64,000 nucleotides of DNA, taken from contig NZ_CP109467.1 in NCBI RefSeq assembly GCF_036227325.1, positions 5,270,001-5,334,000 on the forward strand, given 5' to 3'. The translations under genes and the position numbers were made by a program. This DNA comes from Streptomyces sp. NBC_01465. Lineage in GTDB: Bacteria > Actinomycetota > Actinomycetes > Streptomycetales > Streptomycetaceae. Positions 43,702-63,987 of the stretch are shown here, in pieces (the stretch's first letter is position 1; every line of letters starts with the position of its first letter). Below the pieces are notes generated by a model, which made no database searches, was not told where the DNA came from, and was given only the letters and a program-made list of their open reading frames with translations.

Positions 43702-45843
43702 GTGACAGGCCGACGCGCCGCCGCACGGCGCACGTTCCCGATGCGGCTGCTGCTGCCGCCGCTCTTTCTGGTCGCGCTCTTCGCGATGCTGCTCGTCCGC
43801 GGATACGTCCACAACGAGATCGTTCCGGACCACCGGATCCGCCCCGAAGCAGGGACCGGGGAGGTGCCCGACCGGATCCTCGACGGCGGACCGGTCATCG
43901 ACGCACGTTCCCGGTCCCACCCCACCAGCCTGCAGATCCCGGACCACAGGCTGGTGCTGACCTTCGACGACGGGCCCGACCCGAAGTGGACGCCGAAGAT
44001 CCTGGATGAGCTGAAGAAGCACCACGCGCATGCGGTCTTCTTCGTCACCGGCGCCAACGCCTCGCGCTATCCGGACCTCGTGCGGCGGATGGTCGACGAA
44101 GGGCACGAGGTGGGGGTGCACACCTTCAACCACCCTGATCTCTCCTACCAGTCGAAGAGCCGCATAGACTGGGAGCTCTCCCAGACCCAGCTCGCCCTCG
44201 CGGGCGCCGCCGGCATCCGCTCCTCGCTCTTCCGGCCGCCGTACTCCTCCTTCGCCGACGCGATCGACGACGAGAACTGGCCGGTCATCCAGTACGTCGG
44301 CAGCCGCGGATACATCACCGCGCTCGACTCCACCGACAGCGAGGACTGGCAGAAGCCCGGCATCGCGAAGATCGTCGAGAATGCGACGCCCGCCGGTGGC
44401 AAGGGCGCCGTGGTGCTGATGCACGACGCGGGCGGCGACCGTGCCGAGACCGTCGCCGCGCTCGACCGCTTCCTGCCCGAACTCCAGGCGCAGGGCTACA
44501 AGTTCACCAATCTCACCGATGCGCTCGGCGCCCCCAGCGCGCACACCCCGGTCACCGGGCTCGCCCTCTGGAAGGGCAAGGCCTTCGTCACCGTCGTCGG
44601 CGTCTCGGAGCGTGCCACCGACATCCTGGTCGTCTGCCTCGCCGTCATCGGCGTCCTGGTCTTCGTCCGCTTCGGGCTGATGCTGATCCTCGCCGCCGTC
44701 CACGCGCGGCGGGTGCGCCGGCGCGGATTCCGCTGGGGGCCCGAGGTCACCCGGCCCGTCTCGGTCGTCGTCCCCGCGTACAACGAGCGCGAATGCATCG
44801 CCAACACGGTCCGCTCCCTCGCCGCGAGCGATCACCGCATCGAGATCATCGTCGTCGACGACGGGTCGACCGACGGCACCGCGGACATCGTCGACGCGCT
44901 CCGGATGCCGTACGTGAGAGTCGTGCGCCAGCGCAATGCGGGCAAGCCCGCCGCCCTCAACAACGGGATCGCGCACGCCCGTTACGACCTCGTCGTGATG
45001 ATGGACGGCGACACGGTCTTCGAGCCGTCGACCGTACGCGAACTCGTCCAGCCCTTCGGCGACCCGCGCGTCGGCGCCGTCGCGGGCAACGCCAAGGTCG
45101 GCAACCGCGACTCGCTCATCGGGGCCTGGCAGCACATCGAGTACGTCATGGGCTTCAATCTCGACCGCCGCATGTACGACATGCTCGGCTGCATGCCCAC
45201 CATCCCCGGCGCGGTCGGCGCCTTCCGCCGCGACGCCCTCGACCGGGTCGGCGGCATGAGCGAGGACACCCTCGCCGAGGACACCGACATCACCATGGCG
45301 CTGCACCGCGACGGCTGGCGCGTCGTGTACGCGGAGAACGCGCGCGCCTGGACCGAGGCCCCCGAGTCCGTGCAGCAGCTCTGGTCGCAGCGCTACCGGT
45401 GGTCGTACGGCACCATGCAGGCCATCTGGAAGCACCGCCACGCGGTCGTCGAGAGCGGGGCGTCCGGGCGCTTCGGACGGGTCGGGCTGCCGCTCGTCTC
45501 CCTCTTCATGGTGCTTGCCCCGCTGCTCGCGCCCCTGATCGACGTCTTCCTCCTGTACGGCCTCGTCTTCGGGCCCACCGCCCGAACTGCCGCCGCCTGG
45601 GGGGCGGTTCTGGCCCTGCAGGCCGTCTGTGCCGCGTACGCCTTCCGGCTCGACCGCGAGCGGCTCACCCATCTCGTCTCGCTCCCGCTGCAGCAGATCC
45701 TCTACCGGCAGCTGATGTACGTCGTGCTGCTCCAGTCGTGGATCACCGCTCTCACCGGCGGCCGGCTGCGCTGGCAGAAGCTCCGCCGTACCGGAGTGGT
45801 CGAGGCGCCGGGCTCGATCCCGCAACGGAGGCCGGTCGCATGA
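43702..45843 (+). CDS. matB: MatB-like polysaccharide deacetylase / processive GT2 synthase
   Basis: A 713-residue membrane protein with two enzyme halves. The outer NodB-type deacetylase has TFDDGPD at 87-93, His140 and His144 (HTFNH) and a FRPPYSS block. After helices near 285-330 comes a cytoplasmic GT2 domain: VVVPAYNE ending at 362, MDGDT at 434-438, AEDTD, and QRYRW at 563-567, the mark of processive synthases. C-terminal helices complete the channel. The same activities are split between PgaC and PgaB in other bacteria. MatB is reported to make poly-beta-1,6-N-acetylglucosamine in Streptomyces (recalled). It is translationally linked to the genes on both sides. Confidence 0.88.
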   Translation: MTGRRAAARRTFPMRLLLPPLFLVALFAMLLVRGYVHNEIVPDHRIRPEAGTGEVPDRILDGGPVIDARSRSHPTSLQIPDHRLVLTFDDGPDPKWTPKILDELKKHHAHAVFFVTGANASRYPDLVRRMVDEGHEVGVHTFNHPDLSYQSKSRIDWELSQTQLALAGAAGIRSSLFRPPYSSFADAIDDENWPVIQYVGSRGYITALDSTDSEDWQKPGIAKIVENATPAGGKGAVVLMHDAGGDRAETVAALDRFLPELQAQGYKFTNLTDALGAPSAHTPVTGLALWKGKAFVTVVGVSERATDILVVCLAVIGVLVFVRFGLMLILAAVHARRVRRRGFRWGPEVTRPVSVVVPAYNERECIANTVRSLAASDHRIEIIVVDDGSTDGTADIVDALRMPYVRVVRQRNAGKPAALNNGIAHARYDLVVMMDGDTVFEPSTVRELVQPFGDPRVGAVAGNAKVGNRDSLIGAWQHIEYVMGFNLDRRMYDMLGCMPTIPGAVGAFRRDALDRVGGMSEDTLAEDTDITMALHRDGWRVVYAENARAWTEAPESVQQLWSQRYRWSYGTMQAIWKHRHAVVESGASGRFGRVGLPLVSLFMVLAPLLAPLIDVFLLYGLVFGPTARTAAAWGAVLALQAVCAAYAFRLDRERLTHLVSLPLQQILYRQLMYVVLLQSWITALTGGRLRWQKLRRTGVVEAPGSIPQRRPVA

Positions 45844-55051: not shown

Positions 55052-55084
55052 GCGTCGCCCCGCCCGGTGCGCAAGGATGGAGGC

Positions 55085-57097
55085 ATGCCCAACCGACTCG
55101 CGCACGAGACGTCCCCGTACCTCCTCCAGCACGCCGACAACCCGGTGGACTGGTGGCCGTGGTCGCCCGAAGCCTTCGAGGAGGCGCGGCGCCGGGGTGT
55201 GCCGGTGCTGCTGAGCGTCGGATATTCGAGCTGCCACTGGTGTCATGTCATGGCGCACGAGTCCTTCGAGGACATCGTCACCGCGGCGTACGTGAACGAG
55301 CACTTCGTCTCCGTCAAAGTCGACCGGGAGGAGCGCCCCGACGTCGACGCCGTCTACATGGAGGCCGTCCAGGCGGCCACAGGACAGGGCGGCTGGCCGA
55401 TGACCGTCTTCCTCACCCCGGACGCACAGCCCTTCTACTTCGGTACGTACTTCCCGCCCTCGCCCCGCCACGGCATGGCCTCCTTCCGGCAGGTCCTGGA
55501 GGGCGTGCACGCGGCTTGGACCGACCGGCGCGGGGAGGTCGACGAGGTCGCCGGGAAGATCGTGCAGGACCTGGCGGACCGTTCCCTCGCCTACGACTCC
55601 CCGGAGATGCCCGGTGAGAACGATCTGACGCAGGCGCTGCTCGGGCTGACGCGCGAGTACGACACGAAGAGCGCCGGGTTCGGGGGTGCGCCCAAGTTCC
55701 CGCCGTCCATGGCGCTGGAGTTCCTGCTGCGGAACTACGCGCGGACCGGCTCGGAGGGCGCGCTGGAGATGGCCGTCGGCACCTGCGAGGCGATGGCGCG
55801 CGGTGGGATGTACGACCAGCTCGGGGGCGGTTTCGCGCGGTACTCCGTGGACCGCGAGTGGGTGGTCCCGCACTTCGAGAAGATGCTCTACGACAATGCG
55901 CTGCTCTGCCGGGTGTACGCCCACCTCTGGCGCACCACGGGCTCCGACCTCGCCCGCCGCGTCGCCCTCGAAACAGCGGACTTCATCGCCACCGAACTCC
56001 GCACCAACGAGGGCGGGTTCGCCTCGGCGCTCGACGCCGACAGCGACGACGGTACGGGCAAGCACGTCGAGGGCGCGTACTACGTCTGGACGCCGTCGCA
56101 GCTGCGCGAGGTGCTCGGCGACGAAGCCGGGGACCAGGCCGCCCGGATCTACGGGGTCACCGAGGAAGGCACCTTCGAGGAGGGCGCATCGGTGCTCCAA
56201 CTCCCGGGCGCCGAAGCCGATCCCGAGGTCCGCGCACGCCTCCTCGCCGCCCGCGCCGCACGCCCCGCCCCCGGCCGCGACGACAAGGTGGTCGCCGCCT
56301 GGAACGGGCTCGCGATCGCCGCGCTCGCCGAGGTAGGGGCGTACTTCGAGCGGCCCGATCTGATCGAGCGCGCCACGGAGGCCGCCGATCTTCTCGTACG
56401 CGTGCACATGGACGCCGGTGCGCGTCTTGCCCGTACGTCCAAGGACGGTCAAGTCGGCGCGAATTCCGGGGTGTTGGAGGACTACGCCGATGTGGCGGAG
56501 GGGTTCGTCGCGCTGGCGTCCGTCACCGGGGAGGGTGTCTGGCTGGAGTTCGCCGGGTTCCTGCTCGACCTCGTCATCGACCAGTTCGTCGGCGAGAACG
56601 GCACCCTGTACGACACCGCGCACGACGCCGAGAAGCTGATCCGCCGCCCCCAGGACCCCACCGACAACGCCACCCCGTCCGGCTGGACCGCCGCCGCCGG
56701 AGCGCTGCTCTCGTACGCGGCCCACACCGGCTCCGAGGTCCATCGCACCACCGCTGAAAGGGCGTTGGGCGTGGTCAAGGCGCTCGGCCCGCGCGCGCCC
56801 CGCTTCATCGGCTGGGGTCTGGCCGTCGCGGAGGCGGCGCTCGACGGGCCGCGCGAGGTGGCGGTCGTCGGGCCCCAAGGGGACGCCAGGACAAGGGAGT
56901 TGCACCGCGCCGCACTGCTGTCGACCGCACCCGGGGCCGTGGTCGCCGTGGGGGAGCCGGGCAGCGACGAGTTCCCGCTGCTGGCCGACCGGCCGTTGAT
57001 CGACGGGGGTGGCGCTGCGTACGTATGTCGCAACTTCGTGTGTGCGGCTCCGGTTGACAACGTCGCTGACCTGGGACGAAAGCTTTCGGAAGCATAA
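55085..57097 (+). CDS. Thioredoxin-fold DUF255 protein (YyaL/SPATA20 family)
   Basis: 670 residues. The N-terminal thioredoxin-like domain has [17 protein letters not shown] and the active-site-like CHWC in SSCHWCHVM. The remaining ~480 residues are an (alpha/alpha) barrel resembling N-acylglucosamine epimerases. ATG 55085 has AAGGA seven bases upstream; GTG 55067 is a weaker alternative. Widely conserved but without settled biochemical function. It may act on proteins or sugars. Confidence 0.9.
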
Positions 57098-57196: not shown

Positions 57197-58552
57197 GTGC
57201 GGGGGATGCAGGGGACAGCGCGGCAGGTGACTCGCCGTGTGCTGCCCTCTGCTCACAGGGGGGATCGACCGTTGGTGCTGTCGCTGTTCGTTGCTGCCGT
57301 TTCGCTGGCGCTGTTCTGGATGGCGGGCTTCACGCTGTGGTGGCAGATGCACGCCTGGCGTACGCCCGAGACGCTCGCCGCGACCCGCTTCGACGCCCCG
57401 ACCGAGGCGTCGGGGCTGTCGTTCTCGCTGCTTCTGCCCGCCCGCCACGAGCAGTTGGTGCTGCGGCACACCATCGAGCGGCTCCTCGAATCCACCCACC
57501 GGAACTTCGAGATCATCGTCATCGTCGGCCACGACGACCCGGAGACCGCGGCCGTCGCCGAGCAGATGGCCGCCCACGACCCGCTGCGGGTGCGCGTCGT
57601 CGTCGACACGCACGAGAAGAAGAACAAGCCCAAGGCGCTCAACACCGCGCTGCCGCACTGCCGCGGTGACGTGGTCGGGGTCTTCGACGCCGAGGACCAG
57701 GTCCACCCCGAACTGCTCGCCCACGTCGACCACGCCTTCGTCTCGACCGGCGCGGACGTCGTCCAGGGCGGCGTACAGCTGATCAACTTCCACTCCAGCT
57801 GGTACGCCCTGCGCAACTGCCTGGAGTACTTCTTCTGGTTCCGCTCCCGCCTCCACCTGCACGCCGAGAAGGGCTTCATCCCGCTCGGCGGCAACACCGT
57901 CTTCGTCCGCACAGACGTCCTGCGCGAGGCGGAAGGATGGGACCCGGAGTGCCTCGCCGAGGACTGCGACCTGGGCGTACGGCTCTCCTCCGTCGGCAAG
58001 AAGGTCGTCGTCGCGTACGACGCCGACATGGTCACCCGCGAGGAGACCCCCGGCACGCTGCTCTCGCTCCTCAAGCAGCGCACCCGCTGGAACCAGGGCT
58101 TCCTCCAGGTCTACCGGAAGAAGGACTGGAAGCAACTGCCCACCTGGCGACAGCGGTTGCTCGCCCGCTACACCCTCACCACCCCGTTCATGCAGGCGTT
58201 CACCGGCGTGATCATTCCGCTGAACATCGCCGTGGCGCTCTTCCTCGACGTGCCCGTCGGCATAGCGGTCGTCACCTTCCTGCCGCTGATCACCGCGATG
58301 GTCACGTTCGTCTTCGAGATCGTCGGCCTGCACGACTTCGGCCGGCAGTACGGCCTCCGTGTCCGCCTCGTCCACTACCTCAAGCTCATCGTCGGCGGCC
58401 CCTTCTACCAGATGCTCCTCGCGGGCGCGGCGATCCGCGCGGTCTGGCGGGAGCAGAAGGGCCGCACCGAGTGGGAGCTGACCAGCCACTCCGGCGCACA
58501 CCTTCCCGGTACCGGCGCCGGTAACAGCATCCGAGAGGACATCCGCCAGTGA
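57197..58552 (+). CDS. Processive-type GT2 membrane glycosyltransferase
   Basis: About 451 residues: one N-terminal helix (26-48), a GT2 domain with LLLPARHE near 79-86, DAED at 164-167 and QRTRW at 294-298, then several C-terminal helices. DxD plus QxxRW is the pattern of cellulose/chitin/hyaluronan-type synthases. GTG 57197 and ATG 57206 are both possible starts. The stop overlaps the next start (GTGA at 58549), so the four-gene operon begins here. Product polymer unknown. Confidence 0.82.
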   Translation: MRGMQGTARQVTRRVLPSAHRGDRPLVLSLFVAAVSLALFWMAGFTLWWQMHAWRTPETLAATRFDAPTEASGLSFSLLLPARHEQLVLRHTIERLLESTHRNFEIIVIVGHDDPETAAVAEQMAAHDPLRVRVVVDTHEKKNKPKALNTALPHCRGDVVGVFDAEDQVHPELLAHVDHAFVSTGADVVQGGVQLINFHSSWYALRNCLEYFFWFRSRLHLHAEKGFIPLGGNTVFVRTDVLREAEGWDPECLAEDCDLGVRLSSVGKKVVVAYDADMVTREETPGTLLSLLKQRTRWNQGFLQVYRKKDWKQLPTWRQRLLARYTLTTPFMQAFTGVIIPLNIAVALFLDVPVGIAVVTFLPLITAMVTFVFEIVGLHDFGRQYGLRVRLVHYLKLIVGGPFYQMLLAGAAIRAVWREQKGRTEWELTSHSGAHLPGTGAGNSIREDIRQ

Positions 58553-60219
58553 CCTCCCTCGCGCCCACGCCCCCGCCCGCTCCCACGATCGCGACCACGG
58601 CTGCGCCCACGACGATCCCCGTCCAGCGCGACCGCCGCGCGACCCACCGCCTCCCGCACGAGCCGCGCCCCGTCGTACGCTTCCGCCGCTCGCGCCCCGA
58701 TCTCGCCCTGTGCGCAGGCCTGTTGACGGTCATCATGGTGGTCCAGGGCTGGAACATCACCCGCTTCCCTGCCCTCAGCGACGACGAGGGCACCTACCTC
58801 GCCCAGGCCTGGTCGGTCCAGCAGGGCACCGGCCTCGCGCACTACACGTACTGGTACGACCACCCGCCGCTCGGCTGGATCCAGATCGCGTTCCTCACCT
58901 GGATCCCCTCGCTCTTCTCGCCCGACAACATGACCGTGGCCACCATGCGCTGCGCGATGCTGCTGGTCAGCGCGGCGAGCGCGGTCTTCCTGTACGTACT
59001 GGCGCGCCGGCTCTTCCTGCCGCGCTGGGCCTCGGCCCTGGCGATGGCGCTCTTCGGCCTCTCGCCGCTCTCCGTGGTCCTGCAGCGCGAGATCTTCCTC
59101 GACAACATCGCCGTCATGTGGATGCTGCTCGCCTTCTGCCTGGCCGCATCGCCCAACCGCCATCTCTGGCACCACTTCGCGGCGGGCGTCGCGGGCGCGG
59201 CCTCGGTTCTCTCCAAAGAAACGATGCTGCTCGTCCTGCCCGCGCTCCTCGTCACGATGTGGCGCCACAGCCACCGTGACACCCGCAAGTACGCGGTCAC
59301 CGGCGCGATCACCGCGTGCGTGCTGATAGGGCTCGCCTATCCGCTCTACGCCCTGCTCAACAACGAACTGCTCCCCGGACCCGGCCATGTGTCGCTGATC
59401 GACGGCATCACGTACCAGATGAGCCGTCCGGGCTCCGGCTCGATCTTCGACTCCGCGTCCGGCTCGCACGGCGTCTTCCACTCCTGGCTGTACTACGACC
59501 GGATACTGCCGCTCGGCGGACTGGCCGGGGCGCTGCTGCTCCTGCTCACCCTGCGCTGGTCGATCACCGCGCGGGCGCTCGCGGGCCCCGCCCTGGTGGT
59601 GGCGATCCTCGCCGCCGTCGCGATGCGGCCCTCCGGCTATCTGCCCGCGATGTACGTCATCCAGGCGCTGCCGTTCCTCGCGCTGGTGCTGGCCGGCGGT
59701 GCGGCGAGCATCGCGCATGCCGTACTGCGCAAGGGAGTTGGCCCGGAGCGCCCGCGTATCCCGATGGCCGCCCGCTGGACGGTCGCCGTCGTGCTGGCCG
59801 CCTCGGCGCTCGCGTACACCGTGCCGCGCTGGTACGACGGCAACCGCGACGCGCTCACCGTCGACGCCAACGCCCCCTACCGGGAGGCCGCCGCCTGGAT
59901 GAAGACCCAGGTGAAGGACCCCGCCTCCACCCGCGCCCTGGTCGACGACGCGCTCTGGCTGGACCTGGTGCACGCCGGATACCAGCCGGGCGACGGCGCG
60001 ATCTGGTTCTACAAGGCGGACCTCGACCCCGCCGTCACCAAGACGATGCCGCACGGCTACCGCGACCTCGACTACGTCGTCGCCTCGCCGACCGTGCGGC
60101 GCGACGCCCGCGATCTGCCCAACGTCAAGGCCGCACTGGACCATTCGGCAGTCGTCGCCACCTTCGGCACCGGCGAGGACCGGATCGAGATCCGGAAGAT
60201 CGTGGGGGGTGTGCGATGA
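58549..60219 (+). CDS. GT39/ArnT-like membrane glycosyltransferase
   Basis: 556 residues: a Pro/Thr/Arg-rich cytoplasmic start, about eleven helices and an outer C-terminal domain from about residue 415. The first outer loop has the catalytic-type acid motif SDDEGTY (DDE at 78-80), followed by WYDHPPLGW. These are features of PMT/ArnT transferases that take sugar from polyprenyl phosphate outside the membrane. GTG 58549 overlaps the preceding stop, and its own stop overlaps the next ATG. The next gene probably makes and flips its donor. Confidence 0.83.
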   Translation: MTSLAPTPPPAPTIATTAAPTTIPVQRDRRATHRLPHEPRPVVRFRRSRPDLALCAGLLTVIMVVQGWNITRFPALSDDEGTYLAQAWSVQQGTGLAHYTYWYDHPPLGWIQIAFLTWIPSLFSPDNMTVATMRCAMLLVSAASAVFLYVLARRLFLPRWASALAMALFGLSPLSVVLQREIFLDNIAVMWMLLAFCLAASPNRHLWHHFAAGVAGAASVLSKETMLLVLPALLVTMWRHSHRDTRKYAVTGAITACVLIGLAYPLYALLNNELLPGPGHVSLIDGITYQMSRPGSGSIFDSASGSHGVFHSWLYYDRILPLGGLAGALLLLLTLRWSITARALAGPALVVAILAAVAMRPSGYLPAMYVIQALPFLALVLAGGAASIAHAVLRKGVGPERPRIPMAARWTVAVVLAASALAYTVPRWYDGNRDALTVDANAPYREAAAWMKTQVKDPASTRALVDDALWLDLVHAGYQPGDGAIWFYKADLDPAVTKTMPHGYRDLDYVVASPTVRRDARDLPNVKAALDHSAVVATFGTGEDRIEIRKIVGGVR

Positions 60220-61439
60220 GCATCTGGCCGATGGATGCGACGGGTTCGGACGAGGACGAGGACGCGCACGAACTGGGCGACCCGGCCCTGCGGGGAGCCG
60301 AGGTCTCCGAGCCGGGCGCGGTCACGATCATCATCCCGACCTTCAACGAGGCGGGAAACGTAGGGGAGTTGCTGCGCCGCCTCACCGAATCGGTGCCGTC
60401 CCGCCTCCCCTGCGAGGTCGTCTTCGTCGACGACTCCACCGACGACACCCCGGCCGTCATCGCGGCCGCCGCCCAGGACTGCCCCTTCCCGGTCGCCGTC
60501 ATCCACCGCGACGAGCCGCTCGGCGGCCTGGGCGGGGCGGTCGTCGAGGGGCTGCGCACGGCGGGCTCCGACTGGGTCGTCGTCATGGACGCCGACCTGC
60601 AGCACCCGCCCGCGCTCGTCCCCGAACTGGTCGCGGCGGGCGAGAGCACCAATGCCGATCTGGTCGTCGCCTCGCGCTACATCGCGGGCGGCAGCCGCGC
60701 CGGCCTGGCCGGCGGCTACCGCATCGCCGTCTCGCGCGGCGCGACCTGGCTGACCAAGGCGCTCTTCCCGCGCCGCCTGCGCGGGATCTCCGACCCGATG
60801 AGCGGCTTCTTCGCGATCCGCCGCAGTGTGGTGACGGCGGACGCGCTCAAGCCGCTCGGCTACAAGATCCTCCTGGAGCTGGCGGTGCGCTGCCGCCCCT
60901 CGGAGGTCGCGGAGGTGCCGTTCGTCTTCCAGGACCGGTTCGCGGGCGAGTCCAAGTCGTCGGCGAAGGAGGGGATGCGCTTCCTGCGCCATCTCGTCGA
61001 GCTGCGTACGGCCTCGCCCGTCGCCAGGATGCTGGTCTTCGGGCTGATCGGCCTCTCGGGCTTCGTACCGAACCTCCTCGCCCTGCACGCACTGAACAAC
61101 GCCGGGATGCACTACCTCCCGGCCGAGATCCTCGCCAACCAGGCGGGCGTCGCCTGGAACTTCCTCCTCATCGAACTGCTGCTCTTCCGCTCGCGGCGCG
61201 GGCACCGGCACTGGGCGGACCGGGTGGGCCGGTTCGCGCTGATCGCCAATGCCGATCTGGTGCTGCGGATCCCGCTGATCGCCCTGTTCGTGGGGGAGTG
61301 GGGGATGGGCGTACTGACCGCGACGGTGGCGGCGCTGCTGCTGACGTTCGTGCTGCGGTTCGCGGGGACGGAGGCGCTGGTCTATCTGCCGCGCCGCAAC
61401 CGTAGTGGCCGTAACAACCGGGACAGGAAGGTCGCATGA
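60216..61439 (+). CDS. DPM1-like GT2 fused to GtrA-like flippase domain
   Basis: 407 residues. The GT2 part has IIIPTFNE at 38-45, VDDSTDD at 71-77 and DADLQHPP at 125-132, typical of polyprenyl-phosphate hexose synthases. From about residue 270 come four hydrophobic segments matching GtrA (MLVFGLIGLSGFVPNLLALH, then NQAGVAWNFLLIE). One protein could therefore make undecaprenyl-phosphate-sugar and move it across the membrane. Coupled by ATGA to genes on both sides. Confidence 0.88.
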   Translation: MSIWPMDATGSDEDEDAHELGDPALRGAEVSEPGAVTIIIPTFNEAGNVGELLRRLTESVPSRLPCEVVFVDDSTDDTPAVIAAAAQDCPFPVAVIHRDEPLGGLGGAVVEGLRTAGSDWVVVMDADLQHPPALVPELVAAGESTNADLVVASRYIAGGSRAGLAGGYRIAVSRGATWLTKALFPRRLRGISDPMSGFFAIRRSVVTADALKPLGYKILLELAVRCRPSEVAEVPFVFQDRFAGESKSSAKEGMRFLRHLVELRTASPVARMLVFGLIGLSGFVPNLLALHALNNAGMHYLPAEILANQAGVAWNFLLIELLLFRSRRGHRHWADRVGRFALIANADLVLRIPLIALFVGEWGMGVLTATVAALLLTFVLRFAGTEALVYLPRRNRSGRNNRDRKVA

Positions 61440-63835
61440 GACGTACGAGCCGCACGACCCGCCGCATATCCGCTCTGGCGGCGATCGGGGCGATGACCGC
61501 CGCCCTGCTCGCCGCCGCCCAGGCCCCCGCATCGGCGGCGAACCTCATCTCCAACCCCGGCTTCGAGACGGCCGGTACGGACGGGATGCCGCAGTGCTGG
61601 GAGAAGTCGGGCTGGGGCGACAACGACTTCACGATCGCCACGACCACGGACGCGCACGCGGGCACGAAGGCGATGAAGGTGAACGTCACGCGCCGCGTCG
61701 AGGGCGACCGCAAGGTGCTGATCACGGAGAGCGCGGCGTGCGCCCCTGCGGTGACGCCGGACAGCCAGTACGACCTCTCGCTCTGGTACAAGTCGACGAC
61801 CCCGGACGCCTCCATCACGCTCTTCCGGCACGATGCGACGGCGGGCTGGCAGTACTGGACGGACCTCAAGACCCTTGATCTGAGCGCGAGTTACGCACAG
61901 GCGACGGTGCGTACTCCTGCCGTCCCCGCGGGCACGGACCGCATCACGTGGGGCGTCTCCGTGTACGGCACGGGGGCGGTCACCACGGACGACTACGCGA
62001 TGGCGGAGGTCACGCCGCCGCCCGTGGACCCGGTCTGCAGCGGTACGGCGCAGGAGTGCGCCAAGGGCAAGTGGAACGTGCTGCCGACGCAGAACCCGGT
62101 CCGCTCGATGCACTCGGTCGTCCTGAAGAACGGCAAGGTGCTGCTGATCGCGGGCTCGGGCAACGACCCGGCGGCGTTCGCGGCGGGCACGTTCACCTCG
62201 GCGGTGTACGACCCGGTGAAGGGCACGTACAAGACGATCCCGACGCCCGCCGACATGTTCTGCTCCGGCCATGTGCAGCTGGCCGACGGGCGGGTGCTCG
62301 TGATGAGCGGCAACAAGGCGTACCCGACGGCGGACGGGAAGGTGGGCTACGAGGGGCTGAAGGACTCGTACCTCTTCGACCCGGACACCGAGACGTACAC
62401 GCGCACCAACGACATGAACGACGGCCACTGGTACCCGTCGGCGACCGTGCTCGGCAGCGGTGACGTGGTGTCCTTCGGCGGGCTGCGCGAGGACTCGACG
62501 GGGTCGGTGACGGCGGAGAAGTTCTCGGCGGCGCAGAACAAGTGGCTGCCGATGAACCAGGTCAACCAGACCTGGTCGTACTGGGGCCTCTACCCCTCGA
62601 TGATCCTCATGCAGGACGGCCGGCTCTTCTACAGCGGGAGCCATGTCTTCGGCGACGGGACCCCGGGGTCGGGCGCCTCGGTCTACGACTACGACGCGAA
62701 CACGATCACCGACGTCCCCGGTCTGCAGAACAAGGACCAGCGCGACCAGTCGGCGAGCGTGCTGCTGCCTCCGGCACAGGACCAGCGGGTGCTGACGATG
62801 GGCGGCGGCAACGTCAACACGAACCCGGAGGGCAACCGCCTGACGGACATCATCGACCTCAAGGCCGCCAACCCCTCATATGTGGCAGGTCCGTTGCTGC
62901 CGCAGGGGACGGTCGACCAGGGGACGGGTCCGAAGCCGGAGACGGGTGCGCAGGGGAAGATGTACGTCTCGGCGGTGCTGCTGCCGGACGGGAACGTCTT
63001 CGAGACGGGCGGCGGTCTGCACGACCGGGCGGACCCGGTGTACGAGGCGTCGATGTTCGACCCGACGACGAATGCTTTCACGCCGATGGCCCCGGACCCG
63101 CAGAAGCGGACGTACCACTCCTCGTCCTTCCTGCTGCCGGACGGGCGGGTGATGTCGACGGGCGACAACCCGGGGAACGGCACGTGGAACCACAACGTGT
63201 CGATCTACACGCCGCCGTACCTGCTGAAGGGCGCGCGTCCCTCGATCACGTCGGTCATCAACTCCCAGTGGAAGTACGGCGATACGCAGCGGATCACGGT
63301 GGACCGCCCGATCGCGAAGGCGGAGCTGATCCGCCCTGCGGCGGTCACGCACTCCTCCGACCCGAACCAGCGGTTCGTCGACCTGCCGATGTCGGTGATC
63401 AACGGGAAGACGATCGACCTGAACGTCACGAGCAACCCGAATCTGGCGCCGCCCGGCTGGTACATGCTGTTCGGGGTGGATGCGAACGGGATTCCCTCGG
63501 TGGCGCAGTGGGTGCATCTGGGGGGACCGACGGCGCTGGACGCGACGGCGTCGGCGGCGCATGTCCACTCCTTCGCCGACGATCTGTCGGCGTCGCCCAA
63601 GTCCCGTACGAAGAAGCGGGCTTCGGCGCCGGTGTCGACGACGATCTCGGGCTGTGACCGTCACTACGGGACGGTGAACGTGTGCGTCCCGACGGTGTTC
63701 CCGGCGACGGTGAAGCGGACGACGGCGGCGCGGTGTGCGTGGCTGGGGTCGCACGGGTACGGCCGCCTGAAGGTGAACGGCGACGATCCCTTGCGCCTGG
63801 ACCCGGACCGGAACGGGGTCGCCTGCCGGAGCTGA
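61436..63835 (+). CDS. Secreted galactose/glyoxal oxidase-like copper-radical oxidase
   Basis: 799 residues: signal peptide (1-35), a carbohydrate-binding-like beta-sandwich (about 36-195), a seven-bladed Kelch propeller, a DUF1929-type C-terminal domain and an Excalibur-like calcium motif (DPDRNGVAC) at the very end. The AA5-type copper site can be assigned by motif: Cys276 (MFCSGH) and Tyr333 (HWYPS) as the thioether pair, Tyr560-His561 (TYHSS) and His639 (VTHSSD). It should oxidise an alcohol or aldehyde on a sugar outside the cell and release H2O2. It is the last gene of the glycan operon (ATGA overlap), so the new glycan is its likely substrate. In Streptomyces the related GlxA acts with the CslA synthase (recalled). 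Confidence 0.9.
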   Translation: MRRTSRTTRRISALAAIGAMTAALLAAAQAPASAANLISNPGFETAGTDGMPQCWEKSGWGDNDFTIATTTDAHAGTKAMKVNVTRRVEGDRKVLITESAACAPAVTPDSQYDLSLWYKSTTPDASITLFRHDATAGWQYWTDLKTLDLSASYAQATVRTPAVPAGTDRITWGVSVYGTGAVTTDDYAMAEVTPPPVDPVCSGTAQECAKGKWNVLPTQNPVRSMHSVVLKNGKVLLIAGSGNDPAAFAAGTFTSAVYDPVKGTYKTIPTPADMFCSGHVQLADGRVLVMSGNKAYPTADGKVGYEGLKDSYLFDPDTETYTRTNDMNDGHWYPSATVLGSGDVVSFGGLREDSTGSVTAEKFSAAQNKWLPMNQVNQTWSYWGLYPSMILMQDGRLFYSGSHVFGDGTPGSGASVYDYDANTITDVPGLQNKDQRDQSASVLLPPAQDQRVLTMGGGNVNTNPEGNRLTDIIDLKAANPSYVAGPLLPQGTVDQGTGPKPETGAQGKMYVSAVLLPDGNVFETGGGLHDRADPVYEASMFDPTTNAFTPMAPDPQKRTYHSSSFLLPDGRVMSTGDNPGNGTWNHNVSIYTPPYLLKGARPSITSVINSQWKYGDTQRITVDRPIAKAELIRPAAVTHSSDPNQRFVDLPMSVINGKTIDLNVTSNPNLAPPGWYMLFGVDANGIPSVAQWVHLGGPTALDATASAAHVHSFADDLSASPKSRTKKRASAPVSTTISGCDRHYGTVNVCVPTVFPATVKRTTAARCAWLGSHGYGRLKVNGDDPLRLDPDRNGVACRS

Positions 63836-63836
63836 T

Positions 63837-63876
63837 CCCCACCCGCGGAGCCCCACTGGGGCTCCGCGGGGTGGGG
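63837..63876 (+). terminator. Strong hairpin after the oxidase gene
   Basis: Arms 63837-63854 and 63858-63876 pair almost completely (one bulged G) around a 3-base loop, one base beyond the stop. No T tract. Confidence 0.8.
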
Positions 63877-63878
63877 GC

Positions 63879-63987
63879 TAGGGGGTGTCCGGCGGATCAG
63901 GCCGCCCTTGCTGGGCATGTGCGATCTCGCCGCAGATGTGCGTGCCAGACCGGCGCGACCGCGGCATGATCCGCCGGACACCCCCTA
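63879..63987. mobile_element. MITE-like element, short copy (105 bp between TA dinucleotides)
   Basis: It has the same perfect 19-bp terminal inverted repeat as the element at 20559 (63881-63899 and 63967-63985), flanked by TA (63879-63880, 63986-63987). Left and right subterminal sequences match the long copy, but about 170 bp of its middle are missing. It sits right after the oxidase terminator. Confidence 0.8.

Follow-up and report, generated by a model that had tools for sequence, protein, structure and literature searches.

What the copper-radical oxidase GlxA oxidizes in the cell, and so what accounts for part of the copper need in Streptomyces development, is a question on which a four-gene operon of Streptomyces sp. 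NBC_01465 bears. The operon lies in a 64,000-nucleotide stretch of contig NZ_CP109467.1 (assembly GCF_036227325.1, positions 5,270,001 to 5,334,000, forward strand), which is called the window below. Its genes, named A to D, encode a membrane synthase of glycosyltransferase family 2 (GT2), a GT-C glycosyltransferase, a putative polyprenyl-phosphate sugar synthase and a predicted secreted copper-radical oxidase. We favour, with modest confidence, the reading that this operon is a second actinobacterial glycan machine built from a synthase and a copper-radical oxidase, beside the CslA-GlxA pair, with A, C, B and D acting in four steps. This reading is based on the co-occurrence of A and D, on their collinearity with B, C and an upstream gene T, on linkage of the operon genes that persists after rearrangement, on the synthase-like folds of A, on the homology of C to dolichyl-phosphate mannose synthase (DPMS), on the active site of D and on SCO1/SenC genes clustered with the set in relatives. 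It is also based on published work, cited here and below from parts of the articles' text: CslA-GlxA makes cellulose in vitro (PMC11022532), and maturation of S. lividans GlxA at low copper requires Sco, with ECuC and DtpA also implicated (PMC4736821).

Conservation was assessed in 295 Streptomyces genomes, our own genome included, with A and D scored as present above 500 bits and C or a close relative at E 1e-60. A was found in 112 genomes and D in 112 (~38% each), and 111 of the 113 genomes having either gene have both; one genome has A alone, and one fragmented genome has D alone. These are raw counts over genomes that are related and not independent. The threshold excluded beforehand a fragment of A (63% identical, 164 residues) and a fragment of D (66%, 181 residues), as well as A relatives of 43-45% identity in nine genomes, two of which also have a true A. 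C or a close relative occurs in 114 genomes, in 105 of them together with A and D. Gene order was compared in 81 loci, namely the window and the best 80 of 277 confirmed loci, chosen by likeness to D; S. coeruleorubidus and S. viridochromogenes are among the carriers. T, A, B, C and D are collinear on one strand in 76 of these loci. In the other five the contig itself starts within C or D, or immediately 5' of D. T (window 55067-57097; PF03190, DUF255/thioredoxin-like) is syntenic with the operon yet set apart from A by a median gap of 173 bases.

Within the operon, each of the four open reading frames (ORFs) overlaps the next by 4 bases, as first described. The same gap of -4 was counted between A and B in 70 of 76 loci, between B and C in 72 of 76 and between C and D in 55 of 78, with a script that chose the start codon closest to the one expected from the window and may favour -4. 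From the sequences, this recurrence is more than chance. Gaps above 200 bases occur once each in three loci, and in 75 of the 76 loci having both B and C no more than 200 bases separate the two genes, so the GT-A, GtrA-type and GT-C members are co-encoded.

The linkage is also found in rearranged forms. In a clade with D at ~60% identity, eight loci have A and C on the strand opposite to that of B-D; of the same clade, locus L129 retains no more than a short remnant of C, and L184 has no C beside A, with a C relative elsewhere in its genome. Among 121 genomes of the family, Streptomyces included, D at 60-70% identity was found in eight genomes from four other Streptomycetaceae genera. Seven of these eight loci also have A and B, and six have C; in the eighth, L181, only D and a tail gene were detected within 19 kb. 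At the class level, matches at E 1e-100 were found in 33 of 394 genomes, of which 15 are Streptomyces and 18 belong to one other family, f90. All eight f90 loci examined that have a D-clade oxidase show the order C-D-Sco-A-B (identities of 35-48% for A, 37-45% for B and 41-55% for C), with a SCO1/SenC gene between D and A (protein family of Sco checked in L224). An Excalibur-like match lies between D and Sco in five of the eight, and in L222 also beside a second oxidase. In the Streptomycetaceae loci L186 and L187 the order is D-Exc-Sco-A-B-C. Sco matches were found in fifteen loci: these eight and two, second cuts of three (L218-L220), a short cut of a further f90 genome with C, D and Sco (L221), and L229. 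Streptomyces sp. NBC_01465 has a single SCO1/SenC gene, away from the operon. The L222 stretch carries two D-clade oxidases in 16 kb. In the tree, the second of these, truncated where the contig stops, branches as sister to the 20 Streptomycetaceae D rows together.

These observations agree with the expectation of the original prediction that the neighbours are conserved together, as linkage held in Streptomyces, in other genera and in f90. Chance proximity of the gene set is rejected by the co-occurrence, the collinearity and the linkage in a second family. The further proposal of stoichiometric production is only partly supported: lineages differ in whether C is present and in which way A and C point, so a fixed four-gene cistron is not required.

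A carries the motif QRTRW and is over the Pfam cut-offs of PF13641 (E 1.8e-40), PF13632 and PF00535, consistent with the QxxRW-type GT2 enzyme it was thought to be. It has the features of processive GT2 enzymes of the BcsA/HAS/CslA type, including a GT-A fold, membrane helices, ED and QxxRW, with DxD reading as DAED, and the folds nearest to it are synthase folds. Its start was first placed at 57197. It is probably the TTG at 57272 or the GTG at 57275 instead, because many orthologues begin there and the database copy of the protein has 425 residues. A duplicate of CslA was considered and rejected, as CslA is not among the nine matches of A in its own genome (A itself included). About 11 kb upstream of the operon (window 43702-45843, + strand), a 713-residue protein, 29% identical to A, is one half polysaccharide deacetylase (PF01522) and one half GT2 (PF13641); we take it to resemble MatB of the poly-N-acetylglucosamine (PNAG) system.

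B had been called a GT39-like transferase, and it passes the cut-offs of both PMT_2 (PF13231, 38.3 bits against 26.1) and PMT (PF02366, 36.4 against 22.7). Of 23 orthologues scanned, 22 matched PMT and 20 matched PMT_2. The DDE motif is kept in 93 of 96 sequences, the remaining three being gapped at the site, and a sequence search of the PDB with B gave 0 matches at E 1. C is the expected DPM1-GtrA fusion, with PF00535 followed by PF04138, and it matches both domains of the DPMS structure 5mlz, which we take to be from Pyrococcus furiosus, over residues 35-382 (188 bits, E 2.9e-54). Weaker matches are ArnC (51-53 bits) and sll0501 (31 bits). The third Asp of DAD and the Lys of GESK are each kept in 87 of 91 rows.

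Of the whole set, C varies most: in six of the 112 D-bearing Streptomyces it is missing or fragmentary, with no match at E 1e-60. Genomes without C retain a GT2 match of 32-36% identity over residues ~26-270. A polyprenyl branch is thus supported, but the earlier description of it as complete is only partly supported where it is taken as an essential part, and the idea that every carrier requires C was rejected, as carriers with C absent or fragmentary exist. Conversely, eight Streptomyces have C without D. C relatives without A, B or D nearby were seen in seven stretches, six of them from Streptomyces with identities of 58-76%, and in L141 a C relative lies next to T. Since C occurs without D in those eight genomes and alone in several stretches, C-type synthases serve other loci too.

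D is over the Pfam cut-offs of PF09118, PF07250 and Kelch motifs. An alignment of 118 rows (102 D, 10 f90 and 6 GlxA) indicates that D keeps all six active-site residues (Table 1), and its sequence has the features of AA5 enzymes: a Cys-Tyr pair, an axial Tyr, two His and the Kelch/E-set arrangement. The roles given to these residues (Cys-Tyr pair, axial Tyr, His ligands) are those usual in such enzymes. Trp332 aligns with the residue altered in the W288A GlxA structures. The assignment as an AA5 oxidase was thus borne out in its catalytic residues. The accompanying carbohydrate-binding domain and Excalibur end were rejected as proven domains, since both Pfam scores are below threshold. The CBM_4_9 cut-off is passed by one D homologue (27.7 bits), and in the distant D of L226 three PA14 domains replace the N-terminal module. 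In five relatives (L180, L181, L182, L186 and L187), D ends at ~690-696 residues and is followed by a small ORF homologous to the tail, with a signal-like start by eye; the standalone homologue of L186 has no Pfam match. Because separate tail genes follow D in these five relatives, we believe that the tail is an independent secreted partner that was fused to D in Streptomyces. Among the matches listed, proteins of 670-698 residues and 66-70% identity to the Kitasatospora D (L180) come from Actinoplanes, Catellatospora, Amorphoplanes and Micromonospora endophytica, and from their length they are probably without the tail.

Table 1 Features of the operon in window coordinates.
Feature	Position	Strand	Basis
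A, processive-type GT2 membrane synthase	57272..58552 (ORF open from 57197)	+	motifs DD, DAED, (LA)ED, QRTRW
B, GT-C membrane glycosyltransferase of the PMT/PMT_2 kind, DDE motif	58549..60219	+	Pfam, motif conservation
C, predicted polyprenyl-phosphate hexose (probably mannose) synthase, GT2 and GtrA/DPMS membrane domain	60216..61439	+	PF00535 and PF04138
D, predicted secreted copper-radical oxidase: signal peptide (by eye), N-terminal carbohydrate-binding-like module, Kelch propeller, E-set, linker, Excalibur-like tail	61436..63835	+	
D, N-terminal carbohydrate-binding-like module (~residues 36-190)	61541..62005	+	CBM_4_9 (PF02018) 19.4 bits, below cut-off 25.9
D, Cys276, predicted thioether partner	62261..62263	+	aligns with GlxA FCxGH cysteine; 117/118 rows, the exception being one shortened GlxA row
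D, Trp332-Tyr333, predicted radical Tyr and neighbouring Trp	62429..62434	+	118/118 rows
D, Tyr560-His561, predicted copper ligands	63113..63118	+	118/118 rows
D, His639, predicted copper ligand, E-set	63350..63352	+	118/118 rows
D, Excalibur-like tail	63647..63832	+	Excalibur (PF05901) 13.1 bits, below cut-off 22; separate gene in relatives
Hairpin 3' of D stop	63836..63877	+	-42.5 kcal/mol, z -5.16, 0/200 shuffles equally stable

In the scheme that we favour, A would polymerize a nucleotide sugar and drive the chain through the membrane, as its fold and motifs suggest. C, by its homology, would make a polyprenyl-phosphate-hexose, probably with mannose, and the lipid-linked sugar may be flipped outward by the GtrA-type domain of C or by another flippase. 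The GT-C enzyme B would then pass the lipid-borne sugar to the emerging chain. Secreted D, which its carbohydrate-binding-like module and its Excalibur-like tail would hold close to the wall, would turn primary alcohols of this product into aldehydes and H2O2; its predicted copper site is backed by conservation. The aldehydes may let the glycan cross-link or attach, and gene linkage in two lineages points to copper loading of D by a Sco chaperone. The acceptor, the sugars and the substrate of D are inferred, as are two parts of the original prediction, namely that the polymer receives side-chain sugars and that it is oxidized. A broader version, which we hold only tentatively, is that A, B, C, D, the Excalibur-like secreted partner and Sco form an ancient six-part glycan factory, whose branched glycan has its side sugars oxidized by D and makes a self-cross-linking coat distinct from the cellulose of CslA-GlxA. 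D is a sister oxidase whose conserved linkage is with a different synthase and a lipid-sugar branch, and it offers a specific candidate for the substrate, namely the decorated glycan that A and B would produce.

Several points weigh against a decorated and oxidized polymer. PcManGT, the best structural match of A, is a mannosyltransferase. Several genomes have A, B and D with C absent or a fragment, and the C proteins of L180 and L182 differ at the third DAD residue and the GESK Lys. Neither the window nor L114 nor any of the 80 named loci contains a Sco gene. A search of the phylum matched D in 34 of 396 genomes at E 1e-20, Streptomyces included, and the oxidase relatives outside both families (at most 40% identity), in nine stretches, have no adjacent A or B match; one of these stretches has a 31% C match, and another has CslA-like and GH6-like matches. 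In the text of PMC4736821 at hand, GlxA oxidized glycolaldehyde, and galactose and a range of mono- and disaccharides gave no significant activity; glycan oxidation is thus unproven even for GlxA. Finally, the acceptor of B could be a protein.

This last point leads to protein O-glycosylation, an unlikely alternative in our view, in which polyprenyl-phosphate-mannose from C would serve B as donor for mannosylating secreted proteins, including D at its Ser/Thr-containing linker, while the polymer of A stays undecorated. The sole Pfam matches of B at E 0.001 are indeed protein-mannosyltransferase families, although PMT_2 also takes in transferases acting on lipids and polymers. The closest relative of C is a mannose-specific DPMS, and the 32-36% GT2 of C-less genomes could supply B. 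However, B adjoins A as well as D, even where B-D and A-C diverge, and it persists in L180, L182, L186 and L187, where D has no linker or tail. It is more doubtful still that D is chiefly a structural partner of A, as GlxA is for CslA, with oxidase activity secondary. The near-perfect co-occurrence of A and D would fit this, as would the reports that CslA activity in vitro needs GlxA and that immature GlxA is present in the complex (PMC11022532). CslA is bound by GlxA 12-261, which includes the beta-barrel domain, and not by the helix alone (12-54) (PMC11022532), but D lacks that barrel and, by eye, the membrane helix; it also retains all six active-site residues, and Sco is clustered with it in two lineages. 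We consider it very improbable that A, instead of polymerizing, attaches individual sugars to a lipid or wall polymer, in which case the operon would only glycosylate an envelope glycan already present.

The hairpin after D is likely the operon terminator. Just past it, at window 63880-63986, lies a short element like a miniature inverted-repeat transposable element (MITE), edged by the 20-base inverted repeat AGGGGGTGTCCGGCGGATCA. This repeat has 22 genomic copies at no more than 1 mismatch, which make 11 facing pairs of 107 to 278 bases (control 0).

Among known systems, the closest comparison is with CslA-GlxA(-CslZ) of S. lividans and S. coelicolor, in which a GT2 synthase gene is likewise followed by an AA5 oxidase gene. 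A canonical cslA-glxA, a presence that had been proposed for checking, is found elsewhere in this genome with a convergent GH6 gene (L113), and its GlxA is the genome's other E-set oxidase. There, too, the synthase and oxidase genes share a 4-base overlap, and the two systems have in common the active-site residues and the link to Sco. The suggested parallel is supported, but a close likeness of D to GlxA is supported only in part. The two fall in separate clades (support 96/99 and 99/98), by which a recent GlxA duplicate was rejected, and D scores 399.3 bits with the GlxA equivalog model NF052501, below its curated cut-off of 800. The GlxA beta-barrel PF21110 (Domain 2) scores 153.6 bits in this genome's GlxA and was not found in D at E 0.001, its columns being gapped in all 27 D rows aligned. 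By eye only, the start of D reads as a cleavable signal peptide with no anchor helix evident, unlike the membrane anchor of GlxA. D adds the N-terminal binding-like module and the Excalibur-like tail, the operon adds B and C, and neither the window nor L114 nor any of the 80 named loci holds a relative of the GH6 protein. In the f90 genome of L229, a GlxA-clade oxidase is followed by two CslZ-like matches and a SCO1/SenC-like protein, and a D-type cluster (L227) lies on another contig.

In Frankia a cslA-glxA cluster adjoins sco (PMC4736821), and this cluster may overlap our f90 loci. Liman et al. described additional cslA-glxA copies in S. griseus, S. albus and S. roseosporus (PMC3543389), some of which could be the present operon. 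In the parts of that article consulted, S. coelicolor is reported with GlxA as its only such oxidase, so the S. coelicolor group should provide clean hosts. An AA5 enzyme paper (PMC11267884) concerns, in the text at hand, fungal targets. No account of this gene set was found among the titles and abstract openings listed in searches of the open-access literature. Galactose oxidase (Fusarium; Pseudoarthrobacter 9g43) is among the closest known systems. C is like the 5mlz DPMS over the GT2 and membrane domains, and it differs in being bacterial and operonic. The gsf cluster of Actinoplanes missouriensis likewise carries out GtrA-dependent glycan modification in a sporulating actinomycete, but its gene set differs, and the words "oxidase" and "kelch" are absent from the portion of its text available (PMC13390465). 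In the three-component systems of extracytoplasmic glycosylation, a GT-A enzyme, a GtrA flippase and a GT-C enzyme act together (PMC8035078, PMC11127046), and B and C supply equivalent parts; the difference is that here the GT and GtrA parts are fused in C and tied to a synthase and a copper oxidase. Taken with CslA-GlxA, the operon suggests that the pairing of synthase and oxidase arose with two different synthases.

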